From Topomyia yanbarensis (lineage: Eukaryota > Arthropoda > Insecta > Diptera > Culicidae): a stretch of DNA of 64,000 bases. The DNA lies in NCBI RefSeq assembly GCF_030247195.1, contig NC_080672.1, positions 191,671,810-191,735,809 on the forward strand. Reading direction: 5' to 3'. Each line of letters opens with the position of its first letter. Within the stretch, counting starts at the first letter, position 1. The position numbers and the translations under genes are program-made. Shown piece after piece: positions 16,000-63,709 of this stretch. The notes below the pieces were generated by a model. That model did no database searches. It was given only the letters and a program-made list of their open reading frames with translations, and was not told the origin of the DNA.

Positions 16000-16500
16000 C
16001 ACAGTGGGACCAATCCAAAAAAGGTGGGACAAAACCTATTTGAGGCCTTAGATGTCATTTTAGAGCCAGCATTTCTTCGTAGGATATGTTCACAATATTA
16101 TTCTGCAACTTTTTAAATAGAATATTTTGTTGTTGGACTAAAGTAGAGTATCCGAGCAAAAAAAATTTTTTCAAAAAATTGTTTTAGAGGGTCGATGTCT
16201 TCGACAAAGTTGTAGAATATTATGTTTTTATAACTTCTTCTAAGATACCACAGACATCAGACCTCAAATTTGAGGTAAAATGGTTGTTTTTTGAAAATAT
16301 TATCAAAAAAATCAGTTTTTCGATATTTCCATGCTAAAAACCTTAATTGATTAACTCAATATGTTCTACAAACTTGCAGGTAGCACTAAAATACAACTTT
16401 TTGTTGAAGGAACTAATAACCTAAAATCAATATTTTGGCTTCTAAAACAATTTTTCATATAAATTTACTCTATTTTCATCAAAGATTTCTGTTTTTAGGT
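16000..16500 (+). mobile_element. Possible Transib-like end and diverged body
   Basis: Starts CACAGTG (16000-16006), then a 22-bp spacer, then ACAAAACCT (16029-16037). These are the same heptamer and nonamer as at the well-defined element 37012-37877. It is preceded by CGGCG. I found no matching right end (CACTGTG preceded by AGGTTTTG) in the next few kilobases, so the element is truncated, decayed or ends in something I failed to see. The right coordinate is arbitrary. Confidence 0.45.
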
Positions 16501-17850
16501 GCACTTTTGTGCAGCTAAACTTTGGCTATTCCGATACTGTATTATTCGTAGAATAAAATTAATACTACATAGAAACAGGATATAGTTGGACGCGTTGTTT
16601 GGGTGACCATTCATGTACGACGGTTTATAACATAAAATGCGTTTATATTACGTATCGATTTTCTTGGCTATTTTCGGCAAATTTAAGGTTAAGAGAAACG
16701 AAAGCAATAAAATTGAAAGATGAGTAGATATTCTATAAATGATGGGGTTCTATACAGGTTCTATGAAAACTTAAATGTGTACCTTTCGATGACTTTGAGA
16801 TCGTTTTCAAGTGCCAGATTTTGCCAGACATTTTTAGTTGAACGGCCAAATTTTCTTTGAAAAATAGTGGCAACCCTGAGCGCAAGTCGCTGAACGGTGA
16901 TTGGTGGCACTGGCGGTCCGAATAGCCCCGCATGCTCATTTCACACAAAAGTGCGTCTTGAAAATATTTCCCCAAATAAAAATCATAATAGGAACCGCAA
17001 GCTTTCCAAACACTTACCTGTTATTTTTCACTTTTTTTGTTACTTTAATCACGATTTTGTCATTATAATTATTTTTGTTTTGAGGATGGTGAAAAAATAA
17101 AACGCGTATTTCTACGGGTAGATCACTTCTGATGTATTTTTAAAAATCAGCGAAATTAAATGCACTTCCTTCCATCAAAATAGAAATTCATCATGTATTT
17201 TGCGTTGCGTGCAGTGTATTTTGCGCTGCGTGTAATACGTTAATACCCTACAAAAATTTTGCCCTCCATTCAACAAAACATCGAACAGTCGATCAGCGTA
17301 GTACTTTGTTAAACAAACTTTTCTGCGAGGGAGTGCAAAGTTGATGCAAAAATGGAAATTAAATGCATTATAATTAATTTGATGCAATTTTGTTATATAT
17401 TCTTAGAGTAATCTGCCCCTAGTTGCATCTCCTTTCTAAAATTCACCTGTCAAAATTAATGTTTTAGAATGGTGAAATCGAGAGGATCTTAATTACCCCC
17501 ACGGTCTTAATAGCCCCGGGTTCCCTTATTTATTTTACAACTGTAATATTATAGTTTCGCAAAAAACCCAACTTTTAATCTCTTAAATATTTTAATGAAA
17601 GTATTACCCAATTATAAAACAAAACGCTATACTGTGGAAGTAATTGTTTTAGTTCCACTTTGTAACTCCTATATAAATATTGTTTCTTGGGCTGCTAGTT
17701 ATAATCGACTAATGCTAAGAGATAATTGATTAATTGAAATAAAAAAGTATAGTGGAGAGCATGGTGTTGTATTAGATTTTAAAATTTGGTTATTGCTAAG
17801 AACCGAATAATAAATTATGTTTTAAAGGCCTCCCTTTTAAAACACAATTT
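16501..17850. other. Gene-poor stretch
   Basis: AT-rich, with two similar phrases GTCCGAATAGCCCC (about 16917) and GTCTTAATAGCCCC (about 17502) in direct orientation. Small open frames on both strands (61-80 codons) show no recognisable family. I call no gene. Confidence 0.4.
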
Positions 17851-18849: not shown

Positions 18850-19868
<1,019 letters not shown>

Positions 19869-33810: not shown

Positions 33811-33855
33811 CTTGTAATAACAAAACTTCAATTCGATTCTTTGCTGATAAATGAT

Positions 33856-33871
33856 GGCCCTGAAAAGGGCC
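33856..33871 (-). terminator. Histone mRNA 3' stem-loop
   Basis: The minus strand reads GGCCCTTTTCAGGGCC, a perfect six-base-pair stem and TTTC loop, matching the animal replication-dependent histone 3' processing signal bound by SLBP. It lies 25 bp downstream of the H2B stop. Confidence 0.9.
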
Positions 33872-33895
33872 TTTTGTTTGGGCAGTATTCGGAAT

Positions 33896-36295: not shown

Positions 36296-36487
36296 TATAT
36301 GGTACGACGATACAAACAAACTGATATTGAGCAGCAGTATGCTAAGTTTTTATACCTGACTACAGCACAATGTAAGCTCGTCCTTTTTTGTGTTGTGCTC
36401 AATATGTGTTCTTCGTAGCTCCTCCCCTTCGTTGGTCGATACACAAGCAAATTGTGTTGAACGCGTCGGAGTGCCGTTTACTTAGTA

Positions 36488-36686
36488 GCTGTAATGGAAT
36501 ACCTTTCTGTTAAAGTGTTGAAATTGGAAGGAAATGCTGCCCGTGACAACAAAAAGACGAATTATCCCACGTCTTCAACAGCTGGCGATTCGTAACATCG
36601 AAAAGTTGAACAAACAAGTGACAATTGCTCAAAAACAAAACATCCAATCAGGAGTGCTGCCCAAGAAGACCGAAAAGAAAGCATAA
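36488..36686 (+). pseudogene. H2A: Histone H2A, C-terminal remnant (copy 1)
   Basis: Encodes [20 protein letters not shown], corresponding to [20 protein letters not shown] of H2A. A frameshift follows in the KKTRIIPRHLQLAIRN segment, then NIEKLNK, a deletion across [20 protein letters not shown], and PKKTEKKA with TAA at 36684-36686. The last residues are those of insect H2A. The 5' half, including the start, is missing. A second copy with the same leading substitutions is at 47143-47359, so both derive from one already mutated ancestor. Confidence 0.9.
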
Positions 36687-37006
36687 ATCGAACGCTGAAA
36701 CTCGCAAATGAAATGCATATAGCTGTAAAAACTATCTTTTGAGGACGATCACACATTTTTGATTATGAACAAAATTGAATGGGCCAATCGACGATATGCA
36801 TTTCTATCGAGCAAATTTACCCGCCAAAAACCATTTCCCGACAGGAAATTCTGTGCTGGAACAGAAATTTCTTTGCGATTTTGTCGTCTTTTCACATACA
36901 TAGTTTATTTGGAGTATTTTTGGAATTATCAAGTTGTCAATTTGCAACATTCTTTGAAAATATTGTTGAACTTTTATAAATGAAGACACGAAAACGAGCG
37001 TTTGAC
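36687..37006. other. Histone-cluster spacer
   Basis: AT-rich; no stem-loop is found after the H2A remnant. Similar sequence (CACATATTTTTGATAAAGAACAAAATTGA) follows H2A copy 2, showing common ancestry of the two spacers. Confidence 0.45.
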
Positions 37007-37011
37007 CGTCG

Positions 37012-37877
37012 CACAGTGGCGGCTCTTCAAACAAAAGTCGGACAAAACCTCAAATGTTACCTAATTTGGCTGAAAATTACAATTTAAGCTAATTTTGAGG
37101 TGCTGAGCTCATTTTTGATGCCAAAAGTCGTAAAATATTAAATGCATTTTTCCAAACAGTGTCATTGAACCTTTCTTATAACTATGATCCCGTTTTCATG
37201 GTAGATTTTCCGTTACTGTTCACCAATGTCAGCAATCTCATAAAAAATGAAGAACACTACTTTAAATCCATTGTATAATGTGTTGGTTTACTGTAGATTG
37301 TCTAACTATTTTACACAAAACACCATGTGTCTCCATATCAGCAACAAAGCTTCAAAATCGCCTTAAACCTTTTTGCGCACCTAGGCGCAGAACGAGACCA
37401 TGCTATTCGAAAAGTAGAGGTAATTTCACGTAGAATGTATACTATGTGACCGTTCCGAAATGATTCCGAAATTTGTACAGTATACATTAGTGAAAAAAGT
37501 ATTTTGGATCTGACCACCTTAAACATATTTAAACTAAAAAGTCATAGTTCCAAGCAAATTTACCAAATGTATTTTATTCATTAACAAAGTTCTTTCGTTC
37601 CTCTACACAATGAAACTAGTTGTGCTAAAATCGGACCAAAATCAAAAGAGCAACATGCATTTGAAATGAACAGAGCAATGGTGGTTTCGGAAATGAAAAT
37701 CATTAAAAAATCCGGACTTTGGTACGTTTAAACTCGTGTTAAAAATCGTGTTCTTATCCAATGATCATAAAATTTTGAATATATATCATTCAATACATGA
37801 GAAATTTAGGAAAAATGTAAAATATCAATATTTCAAAAATAAATTTTTGAGGTTTTGGCCAGCCTCCGGCCACTGTG
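37012..37877. mobile_element. Transib-like miniature transposon with RAG-signal-like ends
   Basis: Flanked by the 5-bp direct repeat CGTCG (37007-37011 and 37878-37882). The left end is CACAGTG, 23-bp spacer, ACAAAACCT (37042-37050). The right end, on the minus strand, is CACAGTG (37871-37877), 12-bp spacer, CCAAAACCT (37850-37858). A GC-rich 5-bp duplication and CACAGTG-type ends are diagnostic of Transib, the transposon family from which RAG1 is thought to derive. There is no transposase, so it is a non-autonomous element. It inserted in histone spacer just upstream of the H3 remnant. Confidence 0.8.
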
Positions 37878-37930
37878 CGTCGTCCTACTACCAGCATCAG
37901 AGAAGTAGCAGATCAGCATTTTTTCGCTAC

Positions 37931-38103
37931 ATGGCCCGTACCAAACATACCGCTCATAAGTCCACCGGAGGAAAGCCTCCCCTCAAGCAGTAAGCAACGA
38001 AGGCCGTGTAAAAGTGCCCCAGTCACGGTTGGCGTTAAGAAGCCTCATCGCTACCGAACATAAACTGTCGCCCTGCGAGAAATTCACAACTATCAGCAAT
38101 CAA
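37931..38103 (+). pseudogene. H3: Histone H3, N-terminal remnant
   Basis: Starts MARTKHTAHKSTGGKPPLKQ, close to the H3 tail [20 protein letters not shown], then has a stop (TAA for CTA/TTA, Leu), ATKAV, a second stop, and frameshifts through KKPHRYR and TVALREI to about YQ. Arg-8 has become His, and Lys-14 is followed by changed residues. The core fold and C-terminus are absent. The remnant is bounded on the left by the Transib-like element and on the right by a TA-target MITE. Its own upstream region contains no obvious TATA box within the 50 bp left before the transposon. Confidence 0.9.
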
Positions 38104-38168
38104 GCGGGCCTAAATTGTGACCCAAAATAAACCACAAACCAAGTTCTTTTCAGGACCAGCCAATTATA

Positions 38169-40500: not shown

Positions 40501-43500
40501 CTAAAGCTCTTTACCACATTGGATAAGAAACTTTAGTATGTCTCTGAGTTTCAGTCGACCAAACATGGTTTCGTCTATATAAGGACGGCTGAAGACTCGT
40601 AATCGCAATTGCGCTAGCGCTGGGCAGTTGCATATCAGATGATATGAAGTTCCGTAGTCGGATTCACAAAGATCACATGAAAAAGACTCAGCGCGCTGAA
40701 TAGTTGCCATGTGATAATTGAGTTTGCAGTGGCCGGTTAAAGCCCTGGTCAGCATGCCGCAGTGGAGCTTCGAAAAATGTAAGAGATTTTTCGAAACCAC
40801 TGGGCATGGTTGTTCTAGAAACGCCTTTGTTTGGCGACACGTTTGTAGATTTCTCCAATAATTGCGGTGCTCGGACGAAGCCCAGGACCGTATTTTTTCC
40901 CTTATCCAACTTGTCGAAATTGGCAGCGCGGGCTCAGGACCAACGAAGTCAATCGCTGAACCTGCCCTGGCCAATTCGTCAGCCCATTCATTTCCAGTAA
41001 TACCGCAATGTCCGGGCACCCAGACAAGGTAGATAGTGTTGACAATGCTTAGTTCTTCGATTTGGGTTCGGCACGCGATCACTAGCTTGGACCGGGATTT
41101 GTCTGAGCTAAGGGCCTTGATTGCAGCCTGACTATCGGAGCAGAAGTTTATAACTCTGCCGGACAAACTCAGTTGAAGGGCCGATTGCACCCCGCACATA
41201 ATCGCAAAGATTTCTGCTTGGAATACAGTACAGTATCTACCTAGTGAGTGAGATTGTTCCAGTCTCATTTCACGACAGTAGACACCAGCACCAGCACGTC
41301 CCTCCATCAGAGAACCGTCAGTGTAACAAACCACTTGCGTTTGTTGTTGTCTTTCCATAAAGCCAGACAACCACTCCTCTCGAGAGGGAATCTTAACATG
41401 GAATGTCCTGTAAGGAAAACTACAAGTGAGTGTAATATCGCTGGGAGCAAGAATATCTTCACCCCATGTAACCATTTTTGACCACAATCGTGTATGACTG
41501 GTAGCAAGATCAACATGATTACTGTTCCAAAGCCCAGTAACCTGCAGTCTGTATGCACATGATAGTGCTTCTTGTTTTAAGTGTATGTGTAATGGTTTGA
41601 TATTTAGAAGTGCCTCAAGAGCAGCAGTCGGAGTCGTGGTGAAAGCACCAGTCAACGCCATGAGCGCCATTCTTTGCAGATGGTTTAGCTTTGACTGGAC
41701 TGTCACCACCTCTCCCCTCTGCCACCACACAAGGCATCCGTATGACAGTATTGGACGTACAATTGTCGTGTAAATCCAATAGATGTATTTAGGTTTGAGA
41801 CCCCAGGTCTTTCCAAAAGTTCGTCTGCACTGCCCGAAGGCCATGCACGCTTTCTTGACTCTGAACTCAATGTGAGCAGACCAATTCAGTTTGGAATCCA
41901 ATATGACTCCAACGTATTTGACTTGATCTGCACACAGCAGCTCAGAATCAAAGAACTGCAAGGGACGAACCCCGGTTGTTATTCGCTTCTTCGTGAAAAG
42001 AACCATTGAAGTTTTGCTTGGGTTAACTGATAGTTTAACTTGTCGACACCACTGTTCGACAGCTCTTAATGCCTGTTGCATCAAGTCAAAGATTGTTCCG
42101 ATGCAAAATCCAGTAATTAGTATTTGGTAATCGTCAGCAAACCCGTACGTTGGAAATCCAAGCTCATTGAGTTTCTTCAACAAGCCGTCAGCTACTAAGT
42201 TCCATAACAAAGGTGACAGAACGCCGCCCTGAGGACAACCGCAAATACTCAACTTCCGTATCTCAGCCTGTCGCAGTGACGAGCAAAGTATGCGGTTACT
42301 AAGCATTGCGTTTATCCAACCTGAGATACATGCAGGTATCCCATGACCGCGCGTCGCTTCCAGAATAGACTGGAAGGACACATTGTCAAAAGCACCCTCA
42401 ATATCTAGGAATACACCCAAGCTAGATTGCTTGAGCGAGAAGGCTTTCTCAATGTTGTAAACAACATCGTGAAGCAGAGTGATCGTGGATTTCCCACACT
42501 GATATGCATGTTGCATTTTGTGCAGAGGATATTCAACTAAACTAACGTTCCTGATGTGATGATCGATTATCCGTTCCAAAGCTTTCAGAAGAAAAGAACT
42601 TAAGCTGATAGGCCTAAAACTCTTGGCTTCTTCATAGCTTGAGCGCCCCCCTTTGGGAATAAATCTAACAGTTATTTCTCGCCATGCTTTCGGGATATAC
42701 CCGGTAGCAAGACTGGAAAGCAAAATCTTTTTCAAGACATGTTTAAGAATATCAAATCCCTTTTGCAGTAGCACGGGAAGTATTCCATCTTTTCCGGGTG
42801 ATTTGTATGGAGCAAAGCTGTCAACTGCCCACTTGACCGATTCAGTGGAAACCAGTGTGCGTGCTAGCGCCCACGAGTCCGAATCACCAGAATGAGATCT
42901 GTGAACATTGATCAACTCCGGATCGATACAACCTGGAAAGTGTGTGTCGAAGAGACAATTAAGAACATCTTTTTCGTCTGTCACATAAACACCATCTCTG
43001 GTTTTCAAGGAGTTCATCTGAAAATCATTCGATTTGGAGAGAATTTTATTTAATCTGCTAGCCTCGTTCAGACTAGAGACATTAGTGCATAGGCTTTGCC
43101 AGCCAGCCCGTTCTGCAGATCTAAGACATTTCTTATATGCACTACGAGCTGACCTGAAAGCCCTGGAGTCATCACGCTGACGCCGGTTCCAAGCTCTTCT
43201 CATAACTTTCTTCATTCTATCAAGCTCAGCCCTTCACCAAGGGGTTCCCCTAGTCGATTTAACAGTACGAAGTGGACAAGCTTCTTCGTAGGATGCTAAT
43301 ATGAATGAGTTTGTCGTATCCACGACGTCATCTAAGTCGTCTAGTTGATTAATTGTTGGAAAATATCCATGAAATTTAGTCGCTAAGTTTTCCAAAAAGA
43401 GGTCCCAGTTTGTAGACTTAGGATTACGATATGTCACCACATTGAAGGTGACATCAAAATGCTCGAAAAATATATATTTATGAGCGGATAGAGACGGTTC

Positions 43501-44145
43501 AGTTTCATTTGGAACCTGCCAATTTCCCAGTTCATGCAAAATTCTATCAGAGCAAAGTGTTATGTCTAACACCTCCTCCCTCCCAGACCTCGCAAAAGTT
43601 GGTCGGTTTCCCACATTCAGAATATGGAGATTTGTACTACTTATGTACTCCATCAGTTCAGAGCCTCTCAGATTGATGTCTGAGCTGCCCCAAATGATGT
43701 GATGAGCATTCGCATCACTGCCGATAATGAGCGGAAGCCCATTTCTGCTACAATATGATACAACGCTTTTGAAATCATCAGAAGGAGATGATTCGTTATG
43801 CGGTAGGTATGCTGAACAATATATATATTTTTTGTCTACGTTTCCGACAGTCAATGTAACTGTGACAACACAGATATCGCGAGTTGTGAGCTCCGATATG
43901 AGACACGCGTCAATAGCCTTATTTGCAAGAATGCAAGCACGAGGCATTTCACGTGGGTTAGTCATGCCTGTCTTGTTGTAAGCAATGAAGGCAGTGTTAA
44001 GTAACTTTCCAAAATAGAAGTTTCCTTTATGGAAATACGGTTCTTGAACCAATGCTATGGAAGCTTTACCTTCCTGCATGAGTCGAGATAAATTCATAGT
44101 TGCTGTACGTTTATGTTGGAGATTGACTTGTGCTATTCTAACCAT
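40501..44145 (-). pseudogene. Lian-like polyprotein: endonuclease, RT, RNase H; one nonsense codon
   Basis: ATG at 44145 opens MVRIAQVNLQHKRT. Endonuclease (residues 1-230): VNLQH, LVQEPY, SAYLPHN, IGSDANAHH, LDITLCS. The last box is SAHKYI where SDHxYI is usual, so the Asp of the catalytic pair seems lost. A single TGA (43234-43236) interrupts PWW; the second copy reads PWWN. The frame then stays open for 904 codons: RT with FLDIEGAFDNV, CPQGGVLSPLLWNL and FADD (near 42140); RNase H with CYTDGS, AEIFAI, CSDSQA and GNEWADELA; and a C-terminal zinc motif CDLCESDYGTSYHLICNC. TAA at 40501 follows CGKEL. A young copy, inactive because of the stop and probably the endonuclease change. Confidence 0.85.
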
Positions 44146-46861: not shown

Positions 46862-46970
46862 TTACTTGGAGCTGGTGTATATGGTAACAGTATTGGTGCC
46901 ATCTGAGACGGCGTGCTTGGTCAACTCTTCTGACAGCAGCAAACGGACGGCGGTTTGAATTTCGCGGGAG
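46862..46970 (-). pseudogene. H2B: Histone H2B, C-terminal remnant (copy 2)
   Basis: The minus strand encodes [20 protein letters not shown], then [15 protein letters not shown] and TAA at 46862-46864, intact for the last 35 residues of H2B with a few substitutions (EGTKAVTKY expected). The sequence upstream (GAGATGCTGCAAACGAACTG) is not H2B, so the rest is deleted. Its stem-loop, 20-35 bp downstream, is split by the hAT insertion. It sits about 170 bp from and divergent to H2A copy 2, the usual histone arrangement. Confidence 0.9.
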
Positions 46971-47142
46971 ATGCTGCAAACGAACTGAGCGTGAGCAACA
47001 GCATGCTGAGTTTTTATACCTGACTACAGCACAATGTAAGCTAATCTTTTTTGTGTTGTGCTCAATATGTGTTCTTCGTAGCTTCGTTGGTCGATACACA
47101 AGCAAATTGTTTTGAACGCATCGGAGTGTCGTTTACTTAGTA

Positions 47143-47359
47143 GCTGTAATGGAATACCTTCCTGTTAAAGTGTTGAAATTGGAAGGAAATGCTGCCCGTG
47201 ACAACAAAAAGACGAATTATCCCACGTCTTCAGCAGCTGGTGATTCGTAACAACGAAAAGTTGAACAAATTGCTCTCCGGAGTGACAATTGCTCAGGGCG
47301 ATGTGTTGCCAAATATCCAAGCCGTACTGCTTCCCAAGAAGACCGAAAGGAAAGCATAA
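47143..47359 (+). pseudogene. H2A: Histone H2A, C-terminal remnant (copy 2)
   Basis: Encodes [20 protein letters not shown], then a one-base frameshift at KKT/RIIPR. In the shifted frame it gives [40 protein letters not shown] and A, with TAA at 47357-47359. Only the second half of H2A remains, but it is better preserved than copy 1. It shares the VKVLKLEG changes with copy 1, so the two are duplicates of an already altered gene. No stem-loop lies immediately downstream. Confidence 0.92.
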
Positions 47360-47694
47360 ATCGAAAGCTGAGACTTACCGTCCTTTTCAGGATGACCACA
47401 TATTTTTTGATAAAGAACAAAATTGAAATTGTGTTTCCAATACGGAGATTATCGAACACTCATGGTAAAGAGAATCATTGAATACGGCACCTTGGAAAAA
47501 TGTTTGAGAATTGAAACCTTTTTTGAATGCACCTAGTAAAAATGTTTTCCACTTCACTCCAGTTTGTTTCTGACCATATTTGCAATTTGCGTACTGAAAT
47601 AAATCATAATTTAGGGTTTAACCCAAATTGTTCTCCAGAGAGAAAAAGTCCATGAAACAGAAAATGCAAACTTATTCTTTGAAATGATTTTGGT
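47360..47694. other. Spacer between H2A copy 2 and the H4 remnant
   Basis: No gene. It contains AT-rich sequence and, near 47670-47690, the minus-strand downstream flank of the H4 stem-loop (AAAGAATAAG, compatible with a histone downstream element). Confidence 0.5.
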
Positions 47695-47710
47695 GGCCCT
47701 GAAAAGGGCC
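47695..47710 (-). terminator. H4: Histone mRNA 3' stem-loop of the H4 remnant
   Basis: The minus strand reads GGCCCTTTTCAGGGCC, identical to the intact stem-loop at 33856-33871. It lies 33 bp after the H4 stop codon. Confidence 0.92.
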
Positions 47711-47742
47711 TTTTTTATATAATACAAGTGAGTTCTACCTTT

Positions 47743-47968
47743 TCAACTTCCAAATCCATACAAAGTGCGTCCCTGCCGCTTCACGGCATCTCGGATAGCA
47801 TTTTCCTGCACACCATCAGCATTCGTAGATTAAATCGGAGATGCAATATACACCACCACGACGAGCCAGACGCCGAATGGCGGATTTGGCGATTCCCTGG
47901 ATTTTATCACGAAGAACCTTGCGATGACGCGTGCGATGGTACGGGAACGCAAACATGATACCGCTCAT
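47743..47968 (-). pseudogene. H4: Histone H4 remnant with altered N-terminus and internal deletion
   Basis: The minus strand encodes [20 protein letters not shown] then [16 protein letters not shown], matching [36 protein letters not shown] of H4. A frame change follows, then ENAIRDAVKRQGRTLYGFGS and TGA at 47743-47745. The segment from TYTEHAKRK to VVYAL is deleted, joining DAV to KRQG. The glycine-rich tail is replaced by [13 protein letters not shown], starting at ATG 47968. A TATATATA run about 70 bp upstream (near 48040) could be the old promoter. The stem-loop is intact. Confidence 0.92.
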
Positions 47969-49369: not shown

Positions 49370-50335
49370 CTATAGCTCTTTACCACACTGGATTAGGAAC
49401 AAAAGCATATCCTTAAATTTCAGCTCTCTGTACATAGGTTCATCTATGTATGGAGAACCAAAAATCCGGATGCGCAATTGCATTAATACAGGGCAATTGC
49501 ATATCAAATTATATGATGTTCCGTAATCGGATTCACAAAGATCACATGAATAATACTCACCGCGCTGAATAGTAGCCATGTGATAATTGAGTTTGCAATG
49601 TCCAGTCAGTGCCCTGACCAGAATACTGCAGTTGTGCTTGGAAAAAGGCAACAAATTTCTTGACATTTTCGGACTCACATCCGGCAGAAAAGCCTTTGTT
49701 TGAACGCAAGTTTGCAAGCTACGCCAATGGTTGGCATGTTCGAATGCAGCCCAAGAGCGAATCTTGTGCGTTATCCAACTTATTGACAGTGGTAGAACTG
49801 GTTCTGGACCAACGAAATCAGTCGCAGCGCCAGCTCTAGCCAATTCGTCCGCCCATTCATTTCCAGTAATACCGGAATGACCGAGTACCCATAGAAGGTA
49901 GATAGCATTTGAAATGCTAAGTTCTTCGATTTGAGTTCGACATGCGATTACTAATTTCGATCTCGAATCTGCCGAACTAAGTGCTTTCAGGGTAGCCTGA
50001 CTGTCAGAGCAAAAATAGATTCTTTTACCGCAAATTCCCTGTTGAAGTGCGGATTGTACGCCACACAGAATCGCAAAGATTTCTGCTTGGAATACGGTAC
50101 AGTATCTACCAAGCGAATGAGATTGGTTTAATCTCATCTCATGACAATAGACACCAGCACCGGCTCGGCCCTCCAACAAAGAACCGTCCGTGTAACAAAC
50201 TACGTATTCTTCAAGTTGTCGCTCCATCCAGCCAGACAGCCATTCCTCACGAAGAGGAATTCTCACATTGAAAGTTTTAGAAGGAAAACTACATGTGAGT
50301 GTAAGGTCACTGGGAGCAAGTGTATATTCATCCCA
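49370..50335 (-). pseudogene. Lian-like RNase H and C-terminal zinc motif
   Basis: Open for 298 codons below 50266, with RNase H boxes CYTDGSLLEGRAGAGVY, AEIFAILCG, CSDSQATLKAL and GNEWADELARA (VLGHSG where the first copy has VPGHCG), then the C-terminal CDLCESDYGTSYNLICNC and TAA at 49370 after CGKEL. RNase H removes the RNA template during integration of LOA/I-type elements. The true start is lost with the deleted RT core; the methionine at 50266 is internal. It is followed by the 3' untranslated end to 49011. Confidence 0.85.
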
Positions 50336-50337
50336 AC

Positions 50338-50565
50338 AGGGTTGTTAATGCGATATATTTTTCACGATAATTTATCGGCGTTACTCGTTAACGATAATGT
50401 ATCGTCATCGGAAACTCCGTTAACGATAATGTGTCGTCGCCTTCATCGTCATCTTCGATGATTGTATCGTCGCTTTCATCGTCATCGTCGGTTCATCGGT
50501 TATCGCGATACATTTTGCGTTACTTCCCCGTTTATTGGAGTTGAAGTTGATGCGGCTAACTTTCA
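50338..50565. repeat. CGATAATG/TCATCGTC-rich filler replacing the RT core
   Basis: This 230-bp block interrupts the Lian-like ORF. It starts CAGGGTTGTTAATGCGAT and has many CGTTAACGATAATG and TCATCGTCATC phrases. The CAGGG start hints at a hAT-type MITE, but I could not match a right end or an 8-bp duplication, and the flanking RT sequence is missing, so simple insertion does not explain it. Confidence 0.55.
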
Positions 50566-51105
50566 ATTGTTTGGAAATATGCTTGAAGTGTTCATATCCT
50601 TTTTGTAGTAGAACTGGAATAATTCCGTCCTTTCCCGGAGACTTATACGGAGCAAAACTTTCAATCGCCCATTTGATCGATTCGGTTGTCACAATTCTAC
50701 GAGCAAATGCCCAAGAATCAGAACTGCCTGAAAAGAACTCAGGGGTAGTCGTCAGTGATGGCTCCGTACAACCTGGAAAGTGTGTGTCAAAAAGACAGTT
50801 GAGTACTACATCTTCGTCAGACGAGTATTCACCATTAGCAGTTCTAATGGAACTGACATGAAAGTCTTTCGATTTCGAAAGTAACTTATTTAATCTAATA
50901 GTCTCATTGAGACTTGAGACATTTGTGCAGAGGCTTTTCCAACCACTTCGCTCAGAGGATCGAAGGGCATCTCTGTATGCTTTGCGAGTCAAGTTAAATG
51001 CCTCCGACCCGTCCCTGCGTCTGCGATTCCAAGCTCTCCTACATAACTTTTTGAGTCGAACAAGTTCGGTATTCCACCAAGGGAAAAACTCCGATTTTCT
51101 CATAT
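50566..51105 (-). pseudogene. Lian-like linker and start of RT
   Basis: Encodes FPWWNTELVRLKKLCRRAWN, SLCTNVSSLNETIRLNKLLS, HFPGC and FAPYKSPGKDGIIPVLLQKG, matching the first copy from its PWW to just after KDGILPVLLQKG. Here the two Trp codons are intact, which is the evidence that the stop in the first copy is a mutation. The frame ends in the filler block. The upstream boundary near 51100 (RKSEFF) departs from the first copy. Confidence 0.8.
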
Positions 51106-51115
51106 AAAAATCCAT

Positions 51116-62039: not shown

Positions 62040-63500
62040 ATAAGGGATGCGGACGAAAATAGCTGACCACCGCTTCTTCATTTTGATGATATATCTATAA
62101 TGATTAAATCCCTTTGAAGTGAGAAATCTTAAAGAACTTGTGTTTGTGAACATCTTTACTGAGGACGAAATAACGTGGCGAAGGGTCAAAATTAGCATAC
62201 ACACACGCGAAAATCGATTTTAAATAACACTAATTTACAGCATTTCTGAACTAAATCAGCTAGTGGTCATTTTCAATATAAAATCGTGTGCTGAATCCGA
62301 AAATGAGGTCCAGAAAATTTACAGTAGAACAGTTTTCGAGTTACAGTGAAAAGATGAATTTTTCCTTTAAATTTAAAAGTACGTTCAGTAAATATCTTCG
62401 GTTGTAGTGCATCGATATGAAGTATTATTATGTTGAATTAAAGGTAACTGAATGCACTTCCGATCGTTAGGACATTTTGTTTTAGTGCGACTACTGGTTC
62501 TGACGTCATTTACGAATCTATTGAACTTTTTCTTAATTTTTCGTTGTTTTTTGAACAAAAATGAGCGTGTGGTCAATATTTTCAGCAAGATAAAGCAATC
62601 CCAAAAATTGTATTTTTATGGGCAATTAAAGCCTGCCAATAACCAATGAAAATAAGCACTTGTTAGTTTGAATCCGATGAAAATTGCGAAAGTTATTCAT
62701 TTTTTTGTAACATGGCAATTTTTGTGTTTCTCTGGGTCAACTTATTGAACCATCTCGATATGAGGGACTCTCTGTCAGAATTCTGTTATACAAGTGAATG
62801 GAAGAATTTTGAAAGAATTTAATGTGGGGTAATATTCGAACTCGTTTATCAAAATGATTAAGGACTTCTGATAACAATAATTTCAGCCTCAGTGGAGTAA
62901 TGTCATTAAAAATTCGGCATTAAAAATACGCATAATATTTACATGTACTGAATCTTATATGTACAAAACACGTTGTAAACTGTACGCTCCACAATGCCTT
63001 AATACACGCATCGGAAGCCTATGACTGTGCAAAATGCTAAATTCGGGCACTAGTCTCACGAATGATGACTTATCCACCTATTTCGAGACGTTTTGTTCTA
63101 CTAACAATTTATTTTACGTTATTAAAATGTCTAGAAGTTTATAATTTGAAATTATGTTGGATTCATATTGGCTTCTATGATGTACCGATTTTACTGTACT
63201 GTACTGTTGGGTAAACTGTAACTCATTTTCGGATTCACCACGCAATTTTACATTAGAAATGGTGTTCGAATATTGAAGTTCAGATTTTTATTTTTATTTT
63301 GTAAACTAGTGTAATCTGAAAGAAGCACATTCCTGGTTGATTCTTGCTAATTGCATGCACCGAGCCGCAAATCTTGAACAGTTTTTGTTCGAAGATTCGC
63401 CTCTTTGACGTTGGAAGTAAATTGATTTTATTCGATGGCCAGCCTATTTGGTTTTGAACGAAAACTAATCCGGGTACAGAACTGGGGGTCGTTTGAGGCC
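62040..63500. other. Intergenic, no gene recognised
   Basis: AT-rich with frames of 62-67 codons lacking similarity. The last ~250 bp before 63503 contain only short frames; they may be the lost upstream part of the third H2A, but I cannot show it. Confidence 0.4.
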
Positions 63501-63502
63501 TA

Positions 63503-63709
63503 ATGGAATATCTCGCTGCCGAAATATTGGAGCTTGTAAGAAACGCACCCGCGGAAACAAAAAGACCAGCATTATCCCGTGTTAGCTGCAGCTGGCCATT
63601 CAAAATAACGGAGTTGAGAAAATTGCTCTCTGGCGTGGCTATTGCCCAGTATGGTGTGTTGCCTAGCATCCGCACCATTCTGCTGCTAAAGAACCCGAAC
63701 AGAAAGTAA
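63503..63709 (+). pseudogene. H2A: Histone H2A, C-terminal remnant (copy 3)
   Basis: Uninterrupted 68-codon frame: MEYLAAEILELVRNAPAETK (H2[21 protein letters not shown]), a scrambled RIIPRHLQLA segment (SRVSCSWPFKI), then ELRKLLSGVAIAQYGVLPSI and RTILLLKNPNRK with TAA at 63707-63709. The acidic-patch region and the docking domain are recognisable but with many changes. The leading ATG is the internal Met of H2A, so this is not a complete gene. It differs from copies 1 and 2 and does not share their VKVLKLEG changes. Confidence 0.85.

Follow-up and report, generated by a model that had tools for sequence, protein, structure and literature searches.

A non-coding transposon with unequal ends

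The window analysed here is a stretch of 64,000 nucleotides from the mosquito Topomyia yanbarensis (contig NC_080672.1). Inspection of its sequence identifies an 866-bp non-coding DNA transposon, hereafter a member of family A, with ends that each consist of a heptamer, a spacer and an inner motif but are unequal in their spacers (Table 1). On the plus strand, the left end reads CACAGTG, 23 bp and then ACAAAACCT. The right end, taken on the minus strand, has the same heptamer followed by 12 bp and CCAAAACCT. The layout along the plus strand is CGTCG / CACAGTG GCGGCTCTTCAAACAAAAGTCGG (23) ACAAAACCT ... AGGTTTTGG CCAGCCTCCGGC CACTGTG / CGTCG. A preliminary description of this DNA had proposed these CACAGTG ends, their 23-bp and 12-bp spacers and the CGTCG flanks, and all are exact to the base. 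The longest stop-free frame of the element is 67 aa; a RAG1-like DDE transposase is absent from it, as expected for a non-autonomous element, and so are RAG1L and RAG2L genes, the element being non-coding.

Table 1. Coordinates of the transposon, its parts and neighbouring features in the window.
Feature	Position	Strand	Basis
Non-autonomous Transib-type DNA transposon, family A, 866 bp	37012..37877	+	Copies, target duplications, empty sites
Left target-site duplication CGTCG	37007..37011		Sequence; perfect 5-bp duplication in 36/40 copies
Left heptamer CACAGTG	37012..37018	+	Invariant in 39/39 aligned copies, L172 excluded
Left spacer, 23 bp	37019..37041	+	Constant length in 39/40 copies; substitution rate like that of the interior
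Left nonamer-like motif ACAAAACCT	37042..37050	+	Identical in 39/39 copies; 7/9 to vertebrate nonamer
Right nonamer-like motif CCAAAACCT	37850..37858	-	1 substitution in 39 copies; 6/9 to vertebrate nonamer
Right spacer, 12 bp	37859..37870	-	Constant length in 40/40 copies; 1,123 exact 12-bp sites genome-wide
Right heptamer CACAGTG	37871..37877	-	Invariant in 39/39 aligned copies
Right target-site duplication CGTCG	37878..37882		Sequence
Family B, one arm: CACAGTG, 22-bp spacer, ACAAAACCT	16000..16650	+	Genome copies; Transib-type
Degenerate histone H2A-like sequence, upstream of the insertion	36470..36683	+	tblastn
Degenerate histone H3-like sequence; a high-copy repeat forms its flanks	37931..38105	+	tblastn

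CACAGTG occurs 8 times in the window against 4.8 expected, and therefore the heptamer alone carries little weight. As a model of chance we used 300 simulated windows, searched for a heptamer matching at 6/7 or more and a nonamer matching the vertebrate consensus at 6/9 or more, with a spacer of 12 or 23 and less than 4 kb between ends. Facing heptamer/nonamer pairs arose in 46 of the 300, and pairs that also had an identical 5-bp flank in none. Given this result and the 39 of 40 genome copies that are intact (see below), a chance origin of the family-A ends was rejected. Pattern scans elsewhere returned 2 and 34 stretches of viral contigs and at least 119 of genome contigs, which we judged to be chance matches; the 80 titles among the matches listed for the genome-contig scan are all prokaryote records.

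Degenerate histone sequences are found in two parts of the window, 36470-38105 (H2A, H3) and 46865-47929 (H2B, H2A, H4), with two Rfam histone stem-loops near them (33831-33876 and 47670-47715) and a further weak H2A-like match (47% identity) at 63500-63706. The histone-bearing repeat is of kilobase size and dispersed on all three large contigs (loci L216-L225 were fetched); a high-copy repeat carrying a broken histone cluster seems unusual. Non-LTR retrotransposon frames occupy 40501-44145 and 49370-51115. Of the named sequences related to a 904-aa retrotransposon frame, one from Aedes albopictus ranks first (67% identity over 67% of the query), and the best of the unnamed ones is 76% identical; the best named relative of the other retroelement protein of the window is from Culex pipiens pallens (57% over 98%).

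Both ends are conserved across family A

The genome searched is a 1.168-Gb assembly of 1,044 contigs, three of them chromosome-sized. From 2,020 first-look candidates the best 40 copies of family A were scored, the window copy among them, a choice that favours intact copies. These are 96-100% identical to the window copy, and their mean divergence from the majority sequence is 1.5%, which is a lower bound because they were the best-scoring. The left end, CACAGTG-23-ACAAAACCT, is present in 39 of the 40, the exception (L172) being damaged there, and the right end, CACAGTG-12-(C or T)CAAAACCT, in all 40. The two ends stand at exactly 23 and 12 bp in 39 of the 40; spacing, heptamer and inner motif, for which the preliminary description had proposed a test on many copies, are thus all kept at both ends in these 39.

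In the 39 copies that remain when L172 is excluded, the heptamers and nonamers together hold 1 substitution in 32 sites and the interior 480 in 759, and a count that low did not occur in any of 5,000 random sets of 32 interior sites. Counting singletons alone, there is 1 at these motifs against 7.5 expected (p 0.005). The left spacer has 16 substitutions in its 23 sites, or 0.018 per site and copy compared with 0.016 for the interior, while its length is fixed at 23. Only 1 substitution falls in the 12 sites of the right spacer, and the 20 bp just inside the left and right nonamers hold 1 and 7, respectively. Conservation in family A therefore peaks at the heptamer and nonamer but extends beyond both, and the low substitution inside the left nonamer and in the right spacer may stem from a more extended binding site or from descent from a small number of sources.

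Target duplications and empty sites

A perfect 5-bp target duplication flanks 36 of the 40 copies; three more match at 4/5 and L172 is unpaired. The consensus from the 36 is C (32), G (28), any base, C (32), G (33), or C-R-N-C-G, which bears out the earlier proposal of GC-rich 5-bp duplications of the Transib type. Duplications of this length are described as typical of Transibs (PMC8355894). Family A combines termini that start with CAC, a CACAGTG heptamer and a GC-rich 5-bp duplication, the features by which Transib elements are recognised.

The window element is inserted in the 5' leader of the degenerate histone H3-like sequence. With its joined flanks as query, 1,707 first-look candidates were obtained, and all 40 places that were scored matched at 94-97%. 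At all 10 of the paralogous loci fetched, the element is absent and the leader uninterrupted, with a single CGTCG in 9 and CGTTG in 1. These uninterrupted empty sites fix the boundaries of the insertion and the 5-bp duplication. An empty site was also sought within the window, but the second histone block (~46.9-47.9 kb) yielded no match to H3.

A symmetric family and a genome-wide census of ends

A second family, B, is represented in the window by an arm whose right end was not found there, because the window keeps only one arm of a near-palindromic element. Genome copies show the whole element to be ~1,970 bp long with 22/22 ends; at L197 it is a foldback of 1,970 bp with arms of ~650 bp. 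Three elements carry the same duplication on both sides (CGGCG, GGGTG and TGTCG at L197, L201 and L202), and the window arm with its flank has 3,866 first-look candidate relatives. A symmetric family B and an asymmetric family A, with heptamer and inner motif in common, are therefore present in one genome. A long tract of AT dinucleotides lies at 18850-19340 of the window, ~2 kb downstream of the family-B arm.

We took a census of such ends with the pattern CACAGTGG, a spacer totalling 7-31 bp and (A or C)CAAAACCT; it needs exact motifs and leaves ends with a mutated motif uncounted. There are 2,809 matches genome-wide, compared with 1 for a reversed-pattern control, and 1,123 sites have a spacer of exactly 12 bp, compared with 0 for the reversed pattern. 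The first 100 places listed all lie on one contig (C1), up to 51.2 Mb, and their spacers are 12 bp in 45, 23 bp in 41, 22 bp in 11, and 10, 24 and 27 bp in one each. When neighbouring ends less than 8 kb apart are taken as facing pairs, 20 of these 100 places stay unpaired and the rest make 40 pairs, of which 35 are 12/23, one is 12/24 and four are 22/22; none of the 40 is 12/12 or 23/23. Of the 36 asymmetric pairs listed, 35 are 23/12, even though spacer sequences differ among them (for example, GCGGCTC with GCCGGAGG, GCGGGTC with GCTGGAGG).

Transib transposases in the same genome

A search with the RAG1 family PF12940 gave 66 places at E <=10, the best at 0.003 and none over the cut-off; their open frames range from 106 to 718 aa, and the 14 control genomes had no matches. 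When whole frames were compared with PF12940, all three proteins passed the cut-off. We fetched 16 loci around RAG1-family matches and saw both ends in 12 of them, as facing CACAGTGG ends 3.9-5.3 kb apart that are alike, and hence symmetric, in every case. Identical 5-bp flanks occur on both ends at 9 of the 16 loci: CAATG, CATTG and CACTG at three elements of ~4.2 kb, CGCCG, CGACG, CGTAG and CGTCG at four of 4.5-5.3 kb, and CAATG at both of two 4.19-kb elements. Three elements of 3.85 kb (L234, L240, L241) have facing ends and flanks that differ at one or two bases, and L229, L235, L236 and L237 have a single exact CACAGTGG end each. At L238 and L239 both ends read CACAGTG-23-ACAAAAACA, an 8/9 match to the vertebrate nonamer and an almost perfect 23-RSS. 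Near position 5583 of L237 (in transposase orientation) there is a Transib end with a 16-bp spacer followed by ACAAAAATG, possibly from another unequal pair; its partner was not found at this locus.

In the 4.5-5.3 kb group, a frame of 717-718 aa is open in three of the four copies. The 718-aa frame of L230 aligns over 492 residues (E 1.3e-116) with the chain of 6pqn, which we take to be the protein of H. zea (Hztransib); its alignments with RAG1L and RAG1 chains have E values of 2.4e-4 or worse. The entry 6pqx, of the same sequence as 6pqn, is given as Transib in PMC11844651. The frame of L231 has 545 relatives at E <=1e-30; the best 120 of these include no mosquito name, and their best named member, from Gryllus longicercus, is 57% identical.

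The preliminary description had also asked for an autonomous Transib with matching ends. Transposase elements with the CACAGTGG terminus are present, but none whose inner motif and spacing are those of family A was found among the 16 transposase loci, two long 23/12-flanked intervals and the census of ends. Among the long 23/12-flanked intervals sampled, the frames of L243 and L244 are retroelement-like by inspection and L242 is without a long frame; on C1 below 51.2 Mb, none of 15 RAG1-family matches lies less than 26 kb from a listed end. Ends that start with CACAGTGGT and continue to the family inner motif number 44 genome-wide. Beyond the heptamer, the family-A ends match the four autonomous end types no better than shuffled sequence would allow, with at least 75 of 1,000 shuffles as good, whereas for the family-B ends only 3 and 2 of 1,000 shuffles were as good against the 4.5-kb and L238 types. 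In its C-R-N-C-G target, family A resembles the 4.5-kb type and differs from two others, which have CANTG, although counts are small. A ~30-bp stretch of the family-B arm matches subterminal sequence of L234, L235, L240 and L241 at 85-90%.

Since family A encodes no transposase, its membership of Transib rests on its ends and duplications, and one may ask whether its ends belong to another superfamily or reflect chance similarity of a short repeat. We consider this extremely improbable: the CACAGTGG terminus, the GC-rich 5-bp duplications and the inner motif are all recurrent, and the Transib transposase elements of the same genome have the CACAGTGG terminus too. It is close to certain that the window element belongs to a non-autonomous Transib family, and the Transib-like identity first proposed for it is borne out by its ends, its 5-bp duplications and the same-terminus transposase elements in the genome.

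Register of the ends and resemblance to vertebrate signals

Compared with the vertebrate nonamer ACAAAAACC, the inner motif matches at 7/9 on the left and 6/9 on the right. The register is not unique in this comparison: the left end reaches 7/9 at 12 bp (ACAAAAGTC) and equally at 23, and the right end 7/9 at 11 bp and 6/9 at 12. We rejected the alternative in which the left end would be a 12-RSS, in that the motif at 12 bp is unchanged in 32 of 39 copies and that at 23 bp in 39 of 39. The conserved motif is common to both ends and therefore sets the spacers at 23 and 12. The absolute spacing depends on the register, but the 11-bp difference between the ends, equal to 23 minus 12, does not and is robust.

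Like the 12-RSS and 23-RSS of vertebrates, family A has identical heptamers, an 11-bp difference in spacer and an A-rich inner motif; unlike them, its inner motif departs from theirs at 2-3 of 9 positions. By analogy, the end pair appears to resemble the arrangement that RAG needs. Common descent of these ends with the vertebrate signals, beyond a similar build, would be a stronger claim. The perfect heptamer and the offset of one turn speak for it, and a 12/23 Transib has been proposed as the seed of an antigen-receptor locus (PMC8355894). However, agreement of the inner motifs with the vertebrate nonamer is limited to 7/9 and 6/9 and the autonomous Transibs seen here are symmetric, so that the asymmetry may have arisen more than once; we regard such descent as very unlikely.

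Relation to known asymmetric elements

Most Transib families are reported to have symmetric ends (PMC8289069). Asymmetric 12/23 ends have been described in Transib5 of D. melanogaster and in Transib2, N1, N2 and N3 of An. gambiae, with almost perfect heptamer-nonamer spacers of 12 or 23 +/- 1 bp (PMC8355894), and family A is like these, to judge from that description. It fits the 12/23 +/- 1 class in 39 of 40 copies and, with the 12/24 pair included, in 36 of the 40 facing pairs listed. What sets it apart from the Anopheles and Drosophila elements is a count of more than 1,000 12-bp ends in one genome and an invariance measured over 39 copies. According to PMC7728395, neotropical and New Guinean anophelines are without Transib. 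We did not find family A in the accessible Transib literature, a search that left Repbase and most subscription papers outside. As 12/23 Transib ends are already published, family A is a further case, large and young.

Two other systems provide useful comparisons. Hztransib of Helicoverpa zea is autonomous, has solved structures and offers a chain alignable with a transposase of this genome. Its ends are described as symmetric with little or no nonamer similarity (PMC8289069), in contrast to the non-coding, asymmetric family A. Amphioxus ProtoRAG shares with family A asymmetric bipartite ends and 5-bp GC-biased duplications, but differs in its 27/31-bp spacers, its RAG1L and RAG2L genes and a dissimilar end sequence (PMC8289069).

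Proposed mobilisation of family A and possible origin of the asymmetry

Our main reading, which we put at a probability of roughly 0.88, is that family A is a large, young, non-coding Transib family with ends unequal by one helical turn, mobilised by a Transib transposase made elsewhere. In its many copies, 23- and 12-bp spacers separate a common CACAGTG from a common CAAAACCT inner motif. By analogy with accounts of Transib and RAG (PMC8355894, PMC6941560 and PMC11844651), a Transib transposase supplied in trans would bind the heptamer and inner motif at both ends, cut at the C of the heptamer, leading to cut-and-paste movement, and insert the element with a 5-bp stagger into a GC-rich C-R-N-C-G target. 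The source is probably one of the Transib transposases of the genome, or another that was not found in it; the inner motif is likely to be a protein contact, and the 11-bp offset may be kept because the unequal pair is the preferred substrate.

The asymmetry itself lends itself to two explanations. The 23/12 arrangement could be a historical accident in a single master copy, tolerated by the transposase, neutral and amplified by descent. All copies of family A presumably had one ancestor, and both the 22/22 family of this genome, which shares heptamer and inner motif with family A, and the like ends of the 12 transposase elements with both ends seen are in keeping with such an accident; equal ends evidently work for some Transibs, as these symmetric families suggest. 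Against it, all but one of the 36 listed asymmetric pairs keep 23/12 despite differing spacer sequences, the exception being 24/12, and 12/12 and 23/23 pairs are missing from the 40 listed. The absence of equal-length 12 or 23 pairs suggests either constraint or descent from one master copy, and we treat the accident as a serious alternative, though short of even odds.

The other explanation is that a Transib transposase needs, or at least favours, a pair of unlike ends even in the absence of RAG2, which would amount to an insect pairing rule of the 12/23 type that may predate V(D)J recombination. RAG1 alone is reported not to favour 12/23 pairs over 12/12 ones, and 12/23 asymmetry is described as not followed by the RAG-like gene pairs of invertebrates, although a few Transibs appear to follow it (PMC8355894). 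We advance such a rule tentatively, as possible but on balance unlikely.

Whichever explanation applies, family A is a high-copy, low-divergence family with ends held at 23 and 12 while the sequence of the left spacer drifts. Because families A and B and open Transib transposase frames are present in one genome, a 12/23 rule in Transib is directly testable here, and family A bears on the origin of the 12/23 rule and on why the ends are unequal.
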